DNA from: Deltaproteobacteria bacterium RBG_16_49_23
Lineage (GTDB): Bacteria; Desulfobacterota; BSN033; UBA1163
Reading direction: 5' to 3'
Length of the DNA: 45,158 nucleotides
Assembly (NCBI GenBank): GCA_001798855.1
Contig: MGQQ01000114.1
Location: forward strand, 1 to 45,158
The position numbers and the translations under genes are program-made. The stretch's first letter is position 1. Each line of letters opens with the position of its first letter. The notes beneath the pieces are model-generated. The model searched no databases. It was not told the origin of the DNA and saw only the letters and a list, made by a program, of their open reading frames with translations. Positions 19,825-35,088 of this stretch are shown here, one piece after another.

Positions 19825-20709
19825 ATGTCCAAGGACCCCATGCAGAGGTATGCCGAAAGTTTAGAAAAAACGATCCAGCACAACTACAGCCATCTGAAGG
19901 AGGTGGTGGAGGATTTCAAGGGGCTCTGTCTGGTGGTGACCCCCGAAAAACATACTCCTCAGGATATCATCGTCGATATCCGCGAGCTCTATAAAGAGAT
20001 TCGGGACCGCCTGGCAGAGATCAAGGCCATTCAGCAACTCCTCCAGGGAAAATACAGGATGTATTATCGCCGGGACTCCCTGCGTGACAAAGCCATCATG
20101 GAATTCGGATTCCTCACGAAGAATCTCTATTCCAAGTTTGAATATATCCTGCTTCAAAAACAAGCCTTGACCCAAAAAAGGGAGGAAGAAACCTCCAGAG
20201 CGCAACAGAAGGGCTTCCACTTTCAATGGTTCCGCTCCAGGGAAAATCAAATCATCTTCGTCAGAAACCTGCGGATTCTAAATGAGCTGGATTATGAAGC
20301 CCCTTCGGACTTGGGAATTGAGGAGAGGCGGGAGGTCCCTCAGGAGAAAATTCGCCACCTCACCCTCTTCTGCCTCAAAGGAACGGTCAGCACGATTGAT
20401 GAAGTCTATTCCCGGATCAGATTGCGGGAACATGACATCATCGAGCAATATGCCCAGGGTGAACTGCATGGGCTGATCACCCATTTGAGGGAGGTCAGTC
20501 CTGTGGACGTGGAGAACGTGTTTCAGCGGATATTAAAGAGCGGGGACTTCTCAAAACTCAAAGGTCTCCTCATCCCGATCCGTTCTCCCAAGGATCTCGA
20601 GGGCCCCCTGTTCGATTCGGCGAAAAAGACTCTTGATGAGATGGAAGAAGGAGAGGTGAAAACACTGAGATTTCCGAAAAATCCAGAAATCTCTGATTTC
20701 ACCGATTAA
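19825..20709 (+). CDS. Conserved-looking soluble protein of unknown function
   Basis: The 294-residue protein has no signal peptide or membrane helix. It is rich in predicted helix, with a charged heptad-like stretch near residues 45-70 (DIRELYKEIRDRLAEIKAIQQLLQGK). A recognisable motif is absent. The middle holds QKGFHFQWFRSRENQIIFVRN (about 128-148) and the end is acidic (DEMEEGEVKTL). The frame is fully open with strong codon bias, so it is a real gene. CTGGAGATAG precedes ATG 19825. It is alone between the hairpin array and the MgtE-like gene, which has its own promoter. I do not recognise the family. Confidence 0.75.
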   Translation: MSKDPMQRYAESLEKTIQHNYSHLKEVVEDFKGLCLVVTPEKHTPQDIIVDIRELYKEIRDRLAEIKAIQQLLQGKYRMYYRRDSLRDKAIMEFGFLTKNLYSKFEYILLQKQALTQKREEETSRAQQKGFHFQWFRSRENQIIFVRNLRILNELDYEAPSDLGIEERREVPQEKIRHLTLFCLKGTVSTIDEVYSRIRLREHDIIEQYAQGELHGLITHLREVSPVDVENVFQRILKSGDFSKLKGLLIPIRSPKDLEGPLFDSAKKTLDEMEEGEVKTLRFPKNPEISDFTD

Positions 20710-20897: not shown

Positions 20898-22148
20898 ATG
20901 GATCAGAACCTCAAACAATTTTACTTTTTCAGCGATTTCTTGAACCGTCAGACTTATTCTCCCTCCGGAAAGCGAGCAGGCAAGGTTGCTGATCTGGTGG
21001 CCGAGAGAGTCGAGCCCTATCCCATGATCCTCGGGATGGTTATTCAGGGAAAAGGAAGAAAGAAGTTTTTTCTCCCCTGGCAAAAGATGCTTCAGGTCGA
21101 ACCCCGGATCACCCTTGCTGAGGAAGATCTTCTCGATCTCACAACCTCCCTCGCTGTAAACGACATGGTCCTGCTTCGAGAGGAGGTCATGGATAAACAG
21201 ATCGTGGATACCTTTGGCGCTAAGGTGGTGAGGGTGAACGATCTCCACTTCTTAAAGGTCGAGTCCCGGTTGAGGCTGGTTCATGTCGATGTGGGATTTC
21301 GAGGATTGATGAGGAGGGTGGGATGGGAGAGCATGGTCGATCAGACACTCGAGTGGCTCTTCTCCTACAAACTTCCCAACCAATTTATCTCCTGGAAATA
21401 TGTTCAACTCCTCTCTGGTTCGGACCTGCTCCATCTCAGCGTCTCTCAGAAGAAGCTTTCTCACATTCATCCTGCAGACCTTGCCGATATTATTGAGGAT
21501 TTGGGAGGTCGTGAACGATCCGCTATCTTCCATGCCCTGGACCCCGAGACAGCGGCTGAAACCCTCGAGGAGATTGACCCAAAGATTCAGAAGGCCCTCA
21601 TCGAGACAACCCCGGTGGAGAGAGCCTCTGACATCGTTGAGGAGATGTCGCCCAGCGATGCGGTCGATCTCCTGGCTGACCTCCCGGAGGAGAGAGCAGA
21701 AGAGATCCTTGAAGGAATGGAGCAGGAAAAGGCAGAAGACCTGAGAGAACTCCTTGTTCATCCTGAAGAAACAGCGGGGGGATTGATGACCACCGCCTAT
21801 CTCAGTCTGACGCCCGAGATGACCGTCGAAATAGCCATTACCCGGCTGAAGGCAGAGGCGCCGAATCTGGACATCATGGATTACATCTATATCGTGGACG
21901 AAGAGGAATTCCTCCAGGGGGTGGTCAGCATTCGTGACCTTCTCACGGCCCAATCCCATCAGCCCCTCTCCGAAATCCAGTTCCCCAGGGTGGTAAGCGT
22001 CAAGCTGGACGAAGATCAGAATGAGGTGGTGGAAGCCTTCGCCAAATATGGATTTCGGGCTTTACCGGTGGTTGATGAGGAAAACCATCTGAAGGGCGTG
22101 ATTGGTTTCCGAAATGTCCTGGATGTGCTTGCCCCCGATGCAGGATAA
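20898..22148 (+). CDS. Soluble MgtE-N/CBS-pair protein with N-terminal PRC-barrel-like domain, no membrane part
   Basis: The 416-residue protein starts with PRC-barrel-like sequence (about 11-140). An MgtE intracellular N domain (about 188-290: LSHIHPADLADIIEDL, AAETLEEIDP, SPSDAVDLLADLPEERA) follows, and the MgtE hinge LVHPEETAGGLMTTAY leads into two CBS domains (about 295-412). In MgtE channels this cytosolic module senses Mg2+ and closes the pore. The five-helix MgtE membrane domain is absent; the protein ends after the second CBS. The next gene, 218 bases on, is an Nramp-type transporter, so this may be a sensor or regulator acting in trans. It is driven by a strong promoter with an operator dyad. 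Confidence 0.88.
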   Translation: MDQNLKQFYFFSDFLNRQTYSPSGKRAGKVADLVAERVEPYPMILGMVIQGKGRKKFFLPWQKMLQVEPRITLAEEDLLDLTTSLAVNDMVLLREEVMDKQIVDTFGAKVVRVNDLHFLKVESRLRLVHVDVGFRGLMRRVGWESMVDQTLEWLFSYKLPNQFISWKYVQLLSGSDLLHLSVSQKKLSHIHPADLADIIEDLGGRERSAIFHALDPETAAETLEEIDPKIQKALIETTPVERASDIVEEMSPSDAVDLLADLPEERAEEILEGMEQEKAEDLRELLVHPEETAGGLMTTAYLSLTPEMTVEIAITRLKAEAPNLDIMDYIYIVDEEEFLQGVVSIRDLLTAQSHQPLSEIQFPRVVSVKLDEDQNEVVEAFAKYGFRALPVVDEENHLKGVIGFRNVLDVLAPDAG

Positions 22149-22200
22149 TGTTGAAAGCACCAATAATCGTAACACTTTATTCTTTGAAAAAAGTTATCTA

Positions 22201-22275
22201 ATCCCCCTTTGTCAAAAGGGGGAAATGTTTCTCCTCCCTTGGGCAAAGGGAGGTGGGGAGGGATTTTAAAAAGTT
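22201..22275 (+). repeat. Double hairpin repeat between the MgtE-like and Nramp genes
   Basis: CCCCCTTT/AAAGGGGG-type and CTCCCTT/AAGGGAG-type stems are followed by GGGAGGGATTTTAAAA. It belongs to the same family as 33876-33966, 34955-35050 and 42139-42178. It need not stop transcription; there is no clear T-run after the stems. Confidence 0.6.
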
Positions 22276-22366
22276 TATTTCAAATTGCTAAATTGGTACG
22301 GTTATTGAGATATTGGGATTTGGTTATTGAGTATTCTTTGCATGATTCGTGGATAAAGAAATAACC

Positions 22367-23623
22367 ATGACTGATTACACCCATTGGATTTCAAGTTCGA
22401 AACGGTCTCTGTGGAGGACCGTTGGCCTCTTCTTCATCCTGATGGGGCCGGGCATCATTACCTCCAATGTGGATAACGATGCGGGCGGCATCACCACTTA
22501 TTCTCTGGCCGGGGCGGAATTCGGACTGAAACTGGTCTGGTCTCTCATCCCCATCATGATCGCCCTCATCGTGATCCAGGAGATGTGCGCCCGGATGGGA
22601 GTGGTGACAGGAAAGGGACTCTCGGACCTCATCCGCGAAAAATTTGGAGCCAGGATCACCTTCTATTTGATGATCGGAATGTTCCTGACCAATATGGGCA
22701 ATGCCATCTCCAACTTTGCAGGAGTGGCGGCGGGGATGGAGATCTTTGGCGTCGATAAATTCATCTCCGTCCCCATCAGCGCTTTTCTAGTCTGGTGGAT
22801 GGTCGTAAAAGGAACTTATAAATCGGTGGAGAAGGCCTTTCTGGTCGCCTGTGTCTTCTACATCTCCTACATCATCACCGGCATCATCGTAAAACCGGAT
22901 TGGGACCATGTGGTTGAACAATTTACAAATCCTCAGTTAAGCCTTCAGCCTTCGGAGATGGCCATGGTGATCGGTCTGGTGGGAACGACGATTGCTCCCT
23001 GGATGCAATTCTATCTCCAGGCCTCGATCGTTGAAAAAGGAATAAAAATTGAGGAATATAAGTTCGCCCGGTTCGATGTGGTGATGGGATCAGTCGTCGT
23101 CCACATCGTCGCCTTCTTCATCATCCTGGTCTGCGCGGAGACCCTTCATAAAAACGGAGTCCGGATCGAGACCGCCAAGGATGCGGCCCTCTCCCTGGCT
23201 CCTTTAGCCGGAAAATATTGCACCTATCTCTTTGCCTTCGGGCTCGTCAATGCCTCCCTTTTTGCGGCCTCGATTCTTCCCCTCTCTACGACCTACCTCA
23301 TCTGTGAGGGCCTGGGCTGGGAGGTGGGGATTGACAAGAAGTTTGTAGAAGCCCCTCAGTTTTACGGGATCTATTCTCTGATCATCTTTCTGGGGGCAGG
23401 CATCATTCTTTATCCGGAGCTTCCTCTCATCCCGATCATGTACTTTTCGCAGGTGATCAATGGCATGGTCCTCCCTTTCATCCTCCTCTTCATCCTCCTG
23501 CTCATCAATGACAAGAAGTTGATGATGCAGTACACCAATGGCCCCATCTTCAACATCATCGCCTGGGCGACTACGATCGTCCTGATCGGCTTCACCCTGC
23601 TGCTCTTCATCCGGATGATCTAA
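22367..23623 (+). CDS. Nramp-family transporter with atypical, NRMT-like metal site
   Basis: The 418-residue protein has about 11 membrane helices and the Nramp fold. Helix 1 carries NVDNDAGG (34-41) instead of the usual DPGN. Helix 6 carries TTIAPWMQFYLQ (208-219), with Ala210 where transition-metal Nramps have the ligand Met of MPHN. As I recall, Nramp-related magnesium transporters (NRMT, SLC11 branch) lack this Met and use a wider, more acidic site for hydrated Mg2+. I therefore infer Mg2+ (or Mn2+) rather than Fe2+ uptake; this is not proven. The upstream MgtE-type sensor supports the Mg2+ reading. ATG 22367 is chosen; a GTG at 22349 is an alternative, and both lack a good ribosome binding site. 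Confidence 0.82.
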   Translation: MTDYTHWISSSKRSLWRTVGLFFILMGPGIITSNVDNDAGGITTYSLAGAEFGLKLVWSLIPIMIALIVIQEMCARMGVVTGKGLSDLIREKFGARITFYLMIGMFLTNMGNAISNFAGVAAGMEIFGVDKFISVPISAFLVWWMVVKGTYKSVEKAFLVACVFYISYIITGIIVKPDWDHVVEQFTNPQLSLQPSEMAMVIGLVGTTIAPWMQFYLQASIVEKGIKIEEYKFARFDVVMGSVVVHIVAFFIILVCAETLHKNGVRIETAKDAALSLAPLAGKYCTYLFAFGLVNASLFAASILPLSTTYLICEGLGWEVGIDKKFVEAPQFYGIYSLIIFLGAGIILYPELPLIPIMYFSQVINGMVLPFILLFILLLINDKKLMMQYTNGPIFNIIAWATTIVLIGFTLLLFIRMI

Positions 23624-23657: not shown

Positions 23658-24536
23658 TTAACAGCGGGCTCTTCTCTGGAGGCGTTCCCAGGTATCGTCC
23701 ACATTTCTTTGTGTTGTCTCGATATCCTTTTCAGTGAGGTGGCTGAAACGGCCCTGGAGTTTTAAATACTCTTTGACAGGAACGACATGGGATTCTTCCT
23801 GAATCGTATAGGTCCTTCCATTTTCAATTTCATAGAGCGGGAAGATCCTTGAGCGGACGGCAAGCCTCGAAATTTTAATGGTCTGTTCGGAGGGCATCCT
23901 CCACCCCGGTGGACAGGGAGAGAAAAGATGGATAAAGCGGGTTCCCTGAATCCCTTTGGCCTTCTCCAATTTTCGGATGAGGTCCTCCGGATAGGCGATC
24001 GTTGCTGTTGCTGCATAGGGGATATGATGATCGGCCATGATGGCCATAATGTCTTTCTTGGGATTCTCTTTGGGCTGCATGACCGGAGTTGTAGTCGTCC
24101 ATGCAAGAAGCGGTGTGGCTGAACTTCGCTGTGTCCCTGTATTCATATAGCCTTCATTATCATTACAGATATAGAGCAAATCTTCATTCCTCTCTGCCGC
24201 GCCTGAGAGGGCTTGAAGACCAATATCAAAAGTCCCGCCATCCCCAGCCCATACCGCCACCAGGGTTTCATCATCACCTCGAACATCCAGGGCGGCCCTG
24301 ACCCCTGACGCCGTAGCGGCACCTGTGACAAACCCGGCATGGACAGCCGTGATCCGGTAACTTGAATAGGGCCAGAATCCCGGGACAATCGACCAGCAGG
24401 AGGCAGGAAAAACCATCACGGTCTTCTCACCGAGAGCTTTCAATGTTAGCCTCATGGCAACCGCAGCCCCACATCCGGCGCAGGCTAAATGACCATGACC
24501 CAGGTTTTCTTCCGGCGGGATTTCTATTTTTTTCAT
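23658..24536 (-). CDS. porB: 2-oxoacid:ferredoxin oxidoreductase beta subunit (pyruvate type)
   Basis: The 292-residue subunit binds thiamine diphosphate: GDGGTFDIG with NDNEGYMNTG about 30 residues later is the TPP/Mg motif. Early cysteines (CAGCG near 21) and a later one are likely ligands of a 4Fe-4S cluster. EGYMNTGTQRSSATP is closest to pyruvate-type PorB. The start at 24536 has GAGG five bases upstream; a longer frame from 24569 is unlikely. It is the last gene of the minus-strand operon, 90 bases after porA. The complex decarboxylates a 2-oxoacid to acyl-CoA, passing electrons to ferredoxin; direction and exact substrate are inferred. Confidence 0.93.
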   Translation of the reverse strand: MKKIEIPPEENLGHGHLACAGCGAAVAMRLTLKALGEKTVMVFPASCWSIVPGFWPYSSYRITAVHAGFVTGAATASGVRAALDVRGDDETLVAVWAGDGGTFDIGLQALSGAAERNEDLLYICNDNEGYMNTGTQRSSATPLLAWTTTTPVMQPKENPKKDIMAIMADHHIPYAATATIAYPEDLIRKLEKAKGIQGTRFIHLFSPCPPGWRMPSEQTIKISRLAVRSRIFPLYEIENGRTYTIQEESHVVPVKEYLKLQGRFSHLTEKDIETTQRNVDDTWERLQRRARC

Positions 24537-24626
24537 TCCATCCTCACAACAATTGACTGTGCCAATCAAAGCTTTTGAACGTCATTGATAATTGCTAATT
24601 GAAAAATGACCATTTTACATTGATAT

Positions 24627-25781
24627 CTATTTTTTCAGCCCCAGCCACAAAATATCTCCTTCGGGTTGAGGATGCTCTACCGTATATTGAACCGCCTCTT
24701 CAATCAACGCCGGAGTAATATCCCTTCCACCCAATCCAGAGACGAATCCAAAAACCTGAGGTCTCTCCTCTCGAGAATACAAAGAAGCCCTTAACTCCTG
24801 CGCAAAGATGCCGCCCACTCCGGCGGAAAGATTCCGGTCGATGACGGCGATCTTCTTTGCTCCCTGAATCACTTCACAAATCTCTTCGGAGGGAAAGGGT
24901 CGAAATCTCTTGATCTTGATTCCAGCAACGCTTAAACCTTTCTCCATCAACTTCTTAATCACGATCCTCGAAGTACTGGTCACTGTACCGGAGGTCATCA
25001 AGAGAAGCTCGGCTTCTTTCTTTCCATATCTCTCGATGGCGCCATAACTACGACCAAAACGAGAGCGGAATTCATCATCCACCTTCTTTGCAACCTCTGG
25101 AACCTCCTCCATGGCCTTCTGGACCTTGTACCGAAACTCTAAAAAATAATCAGGAGTGGTGATTACGGAATAGGATCTGGGTTCCTGGGTGTCGATGGGA
25201 TAATCCGGACAGAAAGGCGGCAAGAGGGAGTCCGCCTCCTCGATGCTTGGGATTTCAACAGGCTCAGCAGTATGGGAAAGAACAAAAGCATCGAGGACAA
25301 CCATCACAGGAAGTCTCACCGTTTCTGCGATCAGGTAAGCCTGAAGAATGGTATCCAGGACTTCCTGGTTATTTTCGCAATAGAGTTGGATCCATCCCGT
25401 ATCCCGCTGAGAGACCGAATCGCTCTGATCGCCCCATATATTCCAAGGCGGACCAATGGCCCGGTTGACATTGACCAGGACAATGGGTAGCCTTGCGCCC
25501 GAGGCCCAGTGGAGCATCTCATGCATATAGGCCAACCCGTGAGAAGAGGTGGCTGTAAAGGTTCTCACGCCTCCGGTCGAGGCTCCAATGAGGGCGGCCA
25601 TGGCAGAATGCTCCGACTCCACCTTCAGGAATCTCGTCTTGAGGCGGCCGCTTGCGATGAGCTCCGAGAGTTCTTCCACGATGGTTGTCTGCGGAGTGAT
25701 GGGATAGGCGGAGACCACATCCACACGGCTCAAAATAACCCCATAAGCCACAGCCTGATTTCCTGTGATGACCCTCCTCAT
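24627..25781 (-). CDS. porA: 2-oxoacid:ferredoxin oxidoreductase alpha subunit
   Basis: The 384-residue protein has the POR alpha N-terminal domain: GNQAVAYGVILSRVDVVSAYPITPQTTIVEEL (about 7-38), ESEHSAMAALIGAS (about 55-68) and TATSSHGLAYMHEML. A C-terminal transketolase-like domain ends in AVIDRNLSAGVGGIF and EVIQGAKK. It pairs with the beta subunit to form the TPP active site. It overlaps the upstream GltD-type gene by 4 bases (ATGA), so translation is coupled. Length is normal. Confidence 0.95.
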   Translation of the reverse strand: MRRVITGNQAVAYGVILSRVDVVSAYPITPQTTIVEELSELIASGRLKTRFLKVESEHSAMAALIGASTGGVRTFTATSSHGLAYMHEMLHWASGARLPIVLVNVNRAIGPPWNIWGDQSDSVSQRDTGWIQLYCENNQEVLDTILQAYLIAETVRLPVMVVLDAFVLSHTAEPVEIPSIEEADSLLPPFCPDYPIDTQEPRSYSVITTPDYFLEFRYKVQKAMEEVPEVAKKVDDEFRSRFGRSYGAIERYGKKEAELLLMTSGTVTSTSRIVIKKLMEKGLSVAGIKIKRFRPFPSEEICEVIQGAKKIAVIDRNLSAGVGGIFAQELRASLYSREERPQVFGFVSGLGGRDITPALIEEAVQYTVEHPQPEGDILWLGLKK

Positions 25782-27523
25782 TTAGCCTCCTCCTTTAAAG
25801 AGATGGCTCCCCGGGGACATTCGGTGAAACAGATGCCGCATCCCTTACAGTAATCGTAATCCACTTGATGGGAAAAAAGCTCTTCTCTTTTTAAAATTGA
25901 ACCATCCGGGCAGAAGACATAACAGTTCTCACACTCATTACATGTCCCGCAGCCGAAACAACGCTCCGCCTCCTCCAGGGCAACTCCTTCGGAAAGAGTC
26001 GAGGATACCTCGTTAAATCCTTTGATCCTTTCCTTAACAGCGCTCTTCGATTCTCCCTGCCTTTTCGCAGGCTCGAAGTAGTCCATATTCAATTCTTCGA
26101 AGGTGACCACATGGGGATTCCTCAATCTCTCTCCGGGATGGAGATATCCGAAGATGGAAAGGGACGGACCTTCTCCGATGAGATGTTGAATAATCACCTC
26201 CTCCGCATCTTTTCCCTGCAGAAAAGCATCGATGGCCATGGCCGCCTTTTTGCCGGAACCAATCGCGTGGGCTACGGTCCGCTGGTTAGAGGCGAGGTCT
26301 CCTCCGGCAAAGACCCCTTTGATCCCCGTGCTTCCATCTCTTCGTGTAAGAACGATCCCCTCTCTCTTCTCCGCCCCTTCCGGAAGGAAGGAAGCCCCGA
26401 TCTCCTCTCCTGCCGCGATGACCACATAATCTGCATCAATAAAGAGATTGGAATGGGGAATGGGCACCGGTCTTCTCCGACCACTCTCATCCTTCTCACT
26501 CAGTTCCATTCGTAAACATTCTAACCGTTTCGGGCCATCCTTCTGTCCAACCCGGATCGGATTGACCAGATACCTTATTTTCACTCCCTCCTCAAGAGCT
26601 TCCAGGATCTCATCTTCAAAAGCAGGCATCTCCTCCCTTGAGCGACGATAGAGAATGGTTGCCTTCTTCCCCAGCCGGATAACGGATCGGGCAACATCGA
26701 TGGCAGTATTTCCTCCGCCGATGATAGCAATCTTTTCACCCATCTTTATCCGCTTGCTCAGGTTCATCTTTTTCAGCAGATCGAGGCCGCTCAGGACACC
26801 CTTCTCTTTTTCTCCCTGGATATGGAGGCCCCTGCTCCGGTGTGCTCCTGTGCTAAGGAAGATCGCTTGATAATCCTTTAAGTCCTCTAATTTTAAATGC
26901 TCACCCAGAGAGATTCCCGTCCGGATCTCCACTCCCAATGCCTCGATATTTGAAAGTTCCCTGTCCAAAACATCCCTGGGCAATCGGTAAGACGGAATGC
27001 CCATCCTGAGCATACCGCCTGCAAGGGGGAAGGATTCAAAGACCGTCACATCATACCGGAGCCTTGCAAGATGATAGGCGGAGCTCATCCCGGCCGGCCC
27101 GGAGCCGATAATTGCAACCTTCTCCTTTCTTTTCTCTCCGGCCTTTCCTGTCTTCTTGCTCAGGCGAGGGGCAAAGTCCGCCACAAACCTCTCAAGGGCA
27201 TGAATCGCAATGGGCTCATCAAACGATCCCCGGTTGCACTTCGACTCGCAGGGATGGAAACAGACCCTGCCACAGACTCCGGGAAACGGGTTCTCCTCCC
27301 TGATCAGATTCCATGCCCCCTCCCAATCGCCCTTTGCCGTCTTCAGGATGAAGCCGCTGATATCATTTCCTGCCGGACAGGCAGCGCTGCAAGGCGGGGT
27401 CTTCTCCTCATAGAAAGGGCGTTGAGTTCTCCATGCCCCCGTTTTGTTCCATTCCATATCCCCCAGCGAAACGGAAATCATGGGCATCTCGGATTCACGC
27501 TTGAAAGTGATCTGCTTTCCCAT
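25778..27523 (-). CDS. GltD-like flavoprotein fused to a 2x[4Fe-4S] ferredoxin (POR delta-type) domain
   Basis: The 581-residue protein begins with a cysteine-rich segment (CSAAC at 45-49, CGRVC at 84-88, CESKC near 92-96), as in dihydropyrimidine dehydrogenase and glutamate synthase small subunits. An FAD site IIGSGPAGMSS (138-148) and a second dinucleotide site IIGGGNTAIDVARS (267-280) follow. The C-terminal 60 residues have two ferredoxin motifs (CFGCGTCNECENC and CKGCGICFTECP), like the POR delta subunit. It would link NAD(P)H to the POR iron-sulfur chain. It sits between gamma and alpha, in the position of porD. The GltD-like domain is not evidence of glutamate synthase here, as no large subunit is near. 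GGAGGG precedes ATG 27523. Confidence 0.88.
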   Translation of the reverse strand: MGKQITFKRESEMPMISVSLGDMEWNKTGAWRTQRPFYEEKTPPCSAACPAGNDISGFILKTAKGDWEGAWNLIREENPFPGVCGRVCFHPCESKCNRGSFDEPIAIHALERFVADFAPRLSKKTGKAGEKRKEKVAIIGSGPAGMSSAYHLARLRYDVTVFESFPLAGGMLRMGIPSYRLPRDVLDRELSNIEALGVEIRTGISLGEHLKLEDLKDYQAIFLSTGAHRSRGLHIQGEKEKGVLSGLDLLKKMNLSKRIKMGEKIAIIGGGNTAIDVARSVIRLGKKATILYRRSREEMPAFEDEILEALEEGVKIRYLVNPIRVGQKDGPKRLECLRMELSEKDESGRRRPVPIPHSNLFIDADYVVIAAGEEIGASFLPEGAEKREGIVLTRRDGSTGIKGVFAGGDLASNQRTVAHAIGSGKKAAMAIDAFLQGKDAEEVIIQHLIGEGPSLSIFGYLHPGERLRNPHVVTFEELNMDYFEPAKRQGESKSAVKERIKGFNEVSSTLSEGVALEEAERCFGCGTCNECENCYVFCPDGSILKREELFSHQVDYDYCKGCGICFTECPRGAISLKEEAK

Positions 27524-33875: not shown

Positions 33876-33966
33876 TTCAATAAAATCTCCCCTCGCCCCT
33901 CTTTGCCAAAGAGGGGTATTTTCCCTCCCTTTGGAAAAGGGAGGTGAGGAGGGATTTTATAAAACA
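33876..33966 (+). repeat. Fold-back repeat with CCCCTCTTTG and CCTCCCTTTGG hairpins
   Basis: The outer AATAAAATCTCCCCTC...GAGGGATTTTATAA arms are inverted. The right part (33924-33963) is identical over 40 bases to 42139-42178 at the end of the AllG-type gene. Related copies occur at 22201-22275 and inside 34933-35088. Confidence 0.75.
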
Positions 33967-34950: not shown

Positions 34951-35088
34951 TTTTTTTATCCCCCTTTTGGCAAAGGGGGATTAAGGGGGATTTTAAAAAT
35001 ACGTTCGGAAAATCTCCCCATACCCCTCTTTACCAAAGAGGGGTATAAAAATATGTTTGTATTACTCGAACCAGTAACTAAAGCATTG
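34933..35088 (+). mobile_element. Degenerate MITE-like element downstream of the protease gene
   Basis: The left end GTAACCCCTCGGTTATG (34933-34949) and the right end, the inverse of GCAATGCTTTAGTTACTG (35071-35088), resemble the ends of 7522-7780. The right-end flank TTTGTATTACTCGAACC matches TTTGTATTACTTGAACC at 7747-7763. The interior is two stem-loops (CCCCCTTTTGGCAAAGGGGG and CCCCTCTTTACCAAAGAGGGG-like) with no gene. Confidence 0.5.

Follow-up and report, generated by a model that had tools for sequence, protein, structure and literature searches.

We consider it likely that two adjacent genes, present on a 45,158-nucleotide stretch of DNA referred to here as the window, encode one functional unit, in which an NRMT-type member of the Nramp family would act as an uncoupled importer of hydrated Mg2+ (and probably also of Mn2+) and the protein encoded upstream as its dedicated cytosolic, Mg2+-dependent brake subunit. 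This reading builds on the domain make-up of the two proteins, the NRMT-type metal site, the near-obligate co-occurrence of the genes, M-box control in relatives and the replacement of an entire pair. Among bacterial Mg2+ importers, NRMTs form the fourth class, and since EleNRMT is not proton-coupled, the question arises how a cell avoids overfilling through them. The study of Shin et al. (2014) did not settle what the MgtE-like neighbour does. The window is contig C114 from a draft genome of 3.8 Mb that is 93% complete, so that absences from this genome are provisional; the nearest named relatives of the genome are Deltaproteobacteria metagenome bins. The features of the locus are as follows:

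20898..22148, + strand: gene for the soluble regulator, 416 aa, with PRC barrel 1, PRC barrel 2, MgtE_N and CBS pair
20913..21122, + strand: predicted PRC barrel 1, residues about 6-75 (Pfam, relatives, fold match)
21159..21413, + strand: predicted PRC barrel 2, residues about 88-172 (conservation, fold match)
21465..21770, + strand: MgtE_N domain of the regulator (Pfam)
21654..21656, + strand: Ser253 of the regulator in the place of TtMgtE Asp91, Mg4 site (alignment)
21771..22133, + strand: CBS domain pair of the regulator, which stops short of where the MgtE plug helix would lie
22113..22115, + strand: Asn406 of the regulator in the place of TtMgtE Asp247, Mg4 site (alignment)
22149..22366, no strand: intergenic spacer with a repeat-like C/G-run hairpin (22202-22223)
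22367..23623, + strand: gene for the NRMT-type Nramp, 418 aa if translated from ATG 22367 (GTG start at 22349 also possible)
22475..22489, + strand: TM1 metal-site motif N-D-A-G-G (D38 and G41 = EleNRMT D55 and G58)
22982..23008, + strand: TM6 metal-site motif G-T-T-I-A-P-W-M-Q (T207, A210 and W212 = EleNRMT T224, Ala and W229)

The repeat-like hairpin stretch (22200-22265) has similar pieces near 33925 and 42140 and an inverted one near 34959; given the differing spacer lengths among relatives, it may represent an intergenic repeat or a mobile one. A 294-aa protein that matches neither Pfam nor NCBIfam is encoded directly upstream of the pair (19825-20709, + strand). The genes downstream of the transporter (23658-27523, - strand) are convergent and by reading resemble those for a GltD-like protein and for subunits of a 2-oxoacid oxidoreductase.

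The NRMT-type transporter

The open reading frame 22349-23623 matches the Nramp profile PF01566 from position 1 to 356 of 357 (E 1.6e-101). As homologues begin at about residues 4-7 of this frame, translation more likely begins with the ATG at 22367. Among solved structures, EleNRMT (7qia) is the closest with an E value of 1e-106 compared to 1.5e-24 for the next Nramp, a distance of about 80 orders of magnitude, and every EleNRMT site residue tested is kept: D55, G58, T224, Ala, W229 and Q379 are represented by D38, G41, T207, A210, W212 and Q362. These site residues are nearly invariant across 67 relatives. Compared with canonical Nramps, the NRMT site carries Gly for Asn in TM1 and Thr for Ala, Ala for Met and Trp for His in TM6. 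An earlier note on this DNA had read A-P-W-M in TM6 in place of the usual MPHN and had therefore thought of an NRMT-like Nramp. Indeed, the motif reads G-T-T-I-A-P-W-M instead of the canonical G-A-T-V-M-P-H, and the phylogeny agrees: in a quick maximum likelihood tree with 76 rows, calculated like our other trees without bootstrapping and unsure in the order of its deep, partly long branches, the window protein resides within a 66-row NRMT clade (support 95), EleNRMT is found just outside, and the canonical Nramps, including the Mn/Fe transporters, are far away. The assignment as an NRMT-type Nramp is thus strongly supported by sequence. Identity as an Mn/Fe-transporting MntH is ruled out by tree and site residues, which leave room for Mn2+ as a co-substrate.

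EleNRMT moves Mg2+ and Mn2+ without protons (PMC8806188) and, by analogy, the window transporter would import Mg2+ uncoupled from protons and probably also carries Mn2+. It is conceivable that in the lineage of the window the pair mainly serves Mn2+ (or mixed Mn2+/Mg2+) import and that the regulator answers to Mn2+ or a nucleotide and not to Mg2+. We regard this as rather unlikely, though in this organism Mn2+ may be a co-substrate or even the principal one. NrmT from A. capsulatum, also encoded next to an MgtE-like gene, acted mostly as a Mn2+ transporter in the work of Shin et al. and fully rescued a Mn2+ transport mutant but only partially a Mg2+ one (PMC4072509). Mn2+ transport by EleNRMT points in the same direction, and so does the inventory of the window's genome (93% complete), in which neither another Nramp nor a ZnuA/MntA-type binding protein was found and CorA is present. 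As the genome contains CorA, the NRMT need not be the organism's Mg2+ route. The metal site, however, argues against a mainly Mn2+-importing system: it lacks the soft methionine ligand found in Mn/Fe Nramps and retains the Mg-type threonine, the residue whose exchange in EleNRMT (T224A) left Mg2+ transport no longer detectable (PMC8806188). Furthermore, members controlled by M-box Mg2+ riboswitches are scattered over the NRMT tree. The TM6 motif alone was discarded as a divider between Mg2+ and Mn2+ NRMTs, since it also occurs in members of the Acidobacteriaceae, to which the A. capsulatum protein with its Mn2+ transport belongs.

In three genomes a canonical Nramp (GATVMPH) is encoded within a few kb of an NRMT-regulator pair (L114, 923-2272; L122, 1260-3230; L032 in genome G048), which looks as if genes for Mn and Mg uptake cluster.

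Domains and metal sites of the MgtE-like regulator

In the protein encoded upstream, MgtE_N (E 1.7e-28, residues 190-291) and CBS (E 4e-18) are both matched above the Pfam cut-offs. Among solved structures it is closest to the cytosolic domains of MgtE (residues 185-415 align with about residues 23-256 of TtMgtE at about 36% identity), and in the alignment to solved MgtE structures no sequence matching the MgtE pore was found. This alignment reaches no further than about residue 256 of TtMgtE, in which I260 is already part of the plug helix (PMC5882242, from whose isoleucine positions the TtMgtE numbering was fixed), so that the regulator has neither plug helix nor pore. The description in the earlier note, an MgtE_N domain and a CBS pair without a pore, is therefore correct. 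The AlphaFold model of the regulator (mean pLDDT 89) matches MgtE cytosolic structures and contains no further domain past the CBS pair.

The same note had pointed out PRC-barrel-like sequence at the front. The fold stands, but the model indicates two barrels in tandem and not a single one. Residues 8-66 match the PRC profile with 22.6 bits (Pfam cut-off 21.2), and PRC is also matched by 49 of 54 relatives. When folded separately (pLDDT 88), residues 1-182 resemble the archaeal PRC proteins CdpB1/CdpB2 best (E 2.6e-05), and because of these best matches we interpret the front part as two PRC barrels; a weaker structure match is to the H subunit of photosynthetic (membrane) reaction centres. 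Barrel 2 features the motif DKQIVDxxGAKVVRVND...VDVGxRGLxRR and is the most strongly conserved domain of the regulator, with 13 of 85 columns conserved at 90% or more. At one locus (L129, 1133-2163) the regulator is divided into two overlapping reading frames, one for the PRC part and one for the MgtE_N/CBS part, which recalls the split gene of C. acetobutylicum that is reported by Shin et al.

Metal- and nucleotide-site residues of TtMgtE (PMC5882242, PMC5529423) were mapped by alignment without gaps nearby. Of 63 regulators, 42 have Asp at both positions of the Mg4 pair D91/D247, among them all eight rows with an M-box; the true MgtEs checked also have both, except for one without the second position. 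In the window regulator these positions are occupied by S253 and N406, and the acidic pair is thus lost. At least one Mg4 acid is missing throughout a 19-row clade (support 97) comprising the window's family (f1), Syntrophaceae and Desulfomonile. At the position of D95 (Mg6), 62 of 63 regulators carry Asp (D257 in the window), and the position of E59 (Mg7) is acidic in 48 of 63 (E221 in the window). D226 of the Mg5 site is mostly lost among the regulators (G385 in the window), the other Mg5 residue being kept as D409. The arginine or lysine of the MgtE ATP site is present in 59 of 63, and the nucleotide-site residues Y170, R187, D188 and F227 are represented by Y329, R346, D347 and F386 in the window regulator.

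The protein had been called a membrane-less Mg2+ sensor. Its residues for Mg6 and Mg7 are kept, but with the Mg4 acidic pair lost, sequence alone does not establish sensing. Mg2+ sensing by the window regulator appears altered yet plausible, and the label "Mg2+ sensor" is only probable given that a known MgtE Mg2+ site is missing and that the A. capsulatum transporter mainly served Mn2+ in the study of Shin et al. Loss of the Mg4 pair also fits the Mn2+ reading outlined above. With the Mg4 pair gone but residues of other Mg sites and of the nucleotide site retained, the input of the regulator could have changed in the clade of f1, Syntrophaceae and Desulfomonile. In this reading, the MgtE gating cassette would be a module that can be detached and transferred and that, by way of its tandem PRC barrels, puts a brake in trans on an importer of the unrelated LeuT fold; within the clade it may respond to Mn2+ or ATP/ADP instead of Mg2+. 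In this specific form we hold the idea to be unlikely.

The concentration of conservation in PRC barrel 2 and not in the sensing half could also be taken to mean that the soluble protein helps the NRMT in structure or assembly (membrane anchor, trafficking, metal delivery) and does not work as a feedback gate. The partial retention of Mg2+ sites in the window's clade would agree with such a function, and metal chaperoning is an alternative that Shin et al. put forward (PMC4072509). All the same we find this improbable: NRMTs are active without the regulator in B. subtilis (PMC4072509) and in liposomes (PMC8806188), and a plain scaffold would need neither the almost invariant D95 nor the arginine or lysine of the ATP site.

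Co-occurrence, riboswitches and joint replacement

The pairing of NRMT and regulator is near-obligate across many bacterial phyla. Among 80 NRMT loci taken from named genomes, the regulator adjoins the transporter in 70, and four more loci are cut at contig ends. The regulator precedes the transporter on the same strand in 65 of the 70 cases; the order is reversed in two, the genes are on opposite strands in two, and in one a piece of the regulator is cut by the contig end. The remaining six loci (L119, L123, L128, L133, L136, L140) were dropped as true exceptions, because a full-length regulator is located elsewhere in each of the six genomes. A second NRMT beside the unlinked regulator is absent in five of these genomes and present in that of L140. 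A set of 198 genomes from across the window's phylum provides a similar picture, with an NRMT (E 1e-116 or better) in 44, a full-length regulator in 45 and both in 44; the sole regulator without a detected NRMT stems from a genome that is 67% complete. Going by their coordinates, the two genes lie side by side in 38 of these 44 pairs, and four of the other six are at contig ends. The hypergeometric log10 P for co-occurrence is -42.7 with kinship ignored, and the pairs come from many families. On this point the reading of the earlier note withstood the check, as the two genes are regular neighbours outside the window (70 of 80 loci) and the partner is present in all 44 NRMT genomes among the 198. 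None of six canonical or more distant Nramps in the relatives has the regulator directly beside it. Natural fusions of regulator and transporter were not seen; long frames at L102, L117, L132 and L138 match the transporter only, and where they run across the regulator gene they do so in a different frame. Low-scoring Nramps without regulator occur at L027 (genome G027) and at G146:C5:119763-120986, the former with TTISPY as a TM6 motif of yet another, third type. In G072, which belongs to the same genus as G027, the regulator is present and an NRMT was not found.

M-box Mg2+ riboswitches are situated upstream of pair operons in Bacillota, Geobacteraceae, Acidobacteriota and others. In G060 and G061, where the two genes are unlinked, an M-box precedes the transporter (L123, L128) as well as the regulator (L164, L162). 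Neither in the window nor elsewhere in its genome (93% complete) was an M-box found; M-box control of the window operon was thus rejected, and this absence is a further point for an orientation towards Mn2+.

Genome G012 from the window's family has kept the order of genes for radical SAM, GGDEF and NUDIX proteins, a gene of no known function and ApbA. Between the unknown gene and ApbA it contains a pair that is about 33% identical to that of the window and reversed in order, while the same place in G013, a member of the same genus, holds a pair 83/88% identical to the window's. Both genes were replaced together at one locus in G012. The 294-aa upstream protein is kept across the window's family, including G012 despite the replaced pair; in G013, ApbA directly follows the NRMT, unlike the convergent genes of the window. 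Regulator distances correlate with transporter distances (r 0.53, shuffle maximum 0.27), part of which is given by common descent alone.

One could point at the gap of about 200 bp and the repeat-like stretch between the genes in the window and suspect chance neighbourhood or operon drift of proteins that do not cooperate. We assign practically no probability to this: it is refuted in practice by the near-obligate co-occurrence in several gene arrangements and the joint replacement in G012, and separate M-boxes of unlinked genes speak against it as well. A functional pairing of regulator and NRMT is strongly supported. Of the earlier suggestion that an MgtE module acts on a different kind of transporter in trans, this pairing stands firm (44 of 44 genomes, unlinked M-boxes, joint replacement), while gating in trans would be the best interpretation that the sequences offer.

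The proposed brake and its relation to known systems

In the unit that we favour, the NRMT would import hydrated Mg2+ driven by gradient and membrane potential alone. A brake would be needed because such an uncoupled importer is limited only by these two forces. At high cytosolic Mg2+, possibly together with an adenine nucleotide, the MgtE_N/CBS half of the regulator would compact and thereby lower transport through the NRMT, and the tandem PRC barrels might dock the regulator on the transporter or the membrane. Docking, Mg2+ binding, gating and the direction of the effect are the steps that we infer. A negative regulator fits, since NRMTs work without the partner and its addition did not improve rescue in B. 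subtilis (PMC4072509). Several observations stand against a Mg2+-dependent brake: the Mg4 pair (S253/N406) and one Mg5 residue (G385) are gone so that only D257, E221 and D409 remain, the window's genome (93% complete) has no detected M-box and contains CorA, and A. capsulatum NrmT acted mostly as a Mn2+ transporter (PMC4072509). Near-obligate pairing, split pairs with their own M-boxes and mapped site residues provide a short list of proteins and mutants. If the Mg2+ brake is real, one kind of regulatory half would serve two transporter folds that are not related to each other, fused in MgtE and in trans here.

The pairing as such has been published. Shin et al. (2014) found a homologue of the MgtE N-terminal cytosolic domain next to most nrmT genes (PMC4072509) and proposed feedback regulation or metal chaperoning; pairing and feedback idea are thus rediscovered here. 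No later work on the regulator was found in the literature searched, subscription papers lying outside its scope. In the papers considered, we found no earlier mention of near-obligate co-occurrence, independent M-boxes, joint replacement, tandem PRC barrels and Mg4 loss in the 19-sequence clade.

As far as the passages of Shin et al. considered go, nrmT and its neighbour agree with the window in transporter group, kind of neighbour and usual gene order. M-boxes occur in part of the group but not in the window, and tandem PRC barrels, unlinked regulators elsewhere in the genome and loss of the Mg4 pair go unmentioned there. EleNRMT (PDB 7qia; Ramanadane et al., 2022, PMC8806188) has the metal-site residues D, G, T, A, W and Q in common with the window transporter, but stands apart in the tree as a remote, long-branched sister. 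Canonical Nramp/MntH proteins (DraNramp, ScaDMT, EcoDMT) share the PF01566 fold and form a separate clade. The cytosolic domain of MgtE (TtMgtE, 2yvy/2zy9) exhibits the same fold as the regulator, with MgtE_N superhelix and CBS pair in the same order. In contrast to MgtE, the regulator lacks plug helix and pore, is predicted to begin with two PRC barrels, a feature missing from the MgtE proteins used for comparison, and in the window features Ser/Asn at Mg4. While MgtE and CorA each carry a cytosolic brake within themselves, we propose that here the brake is supplied in trans.
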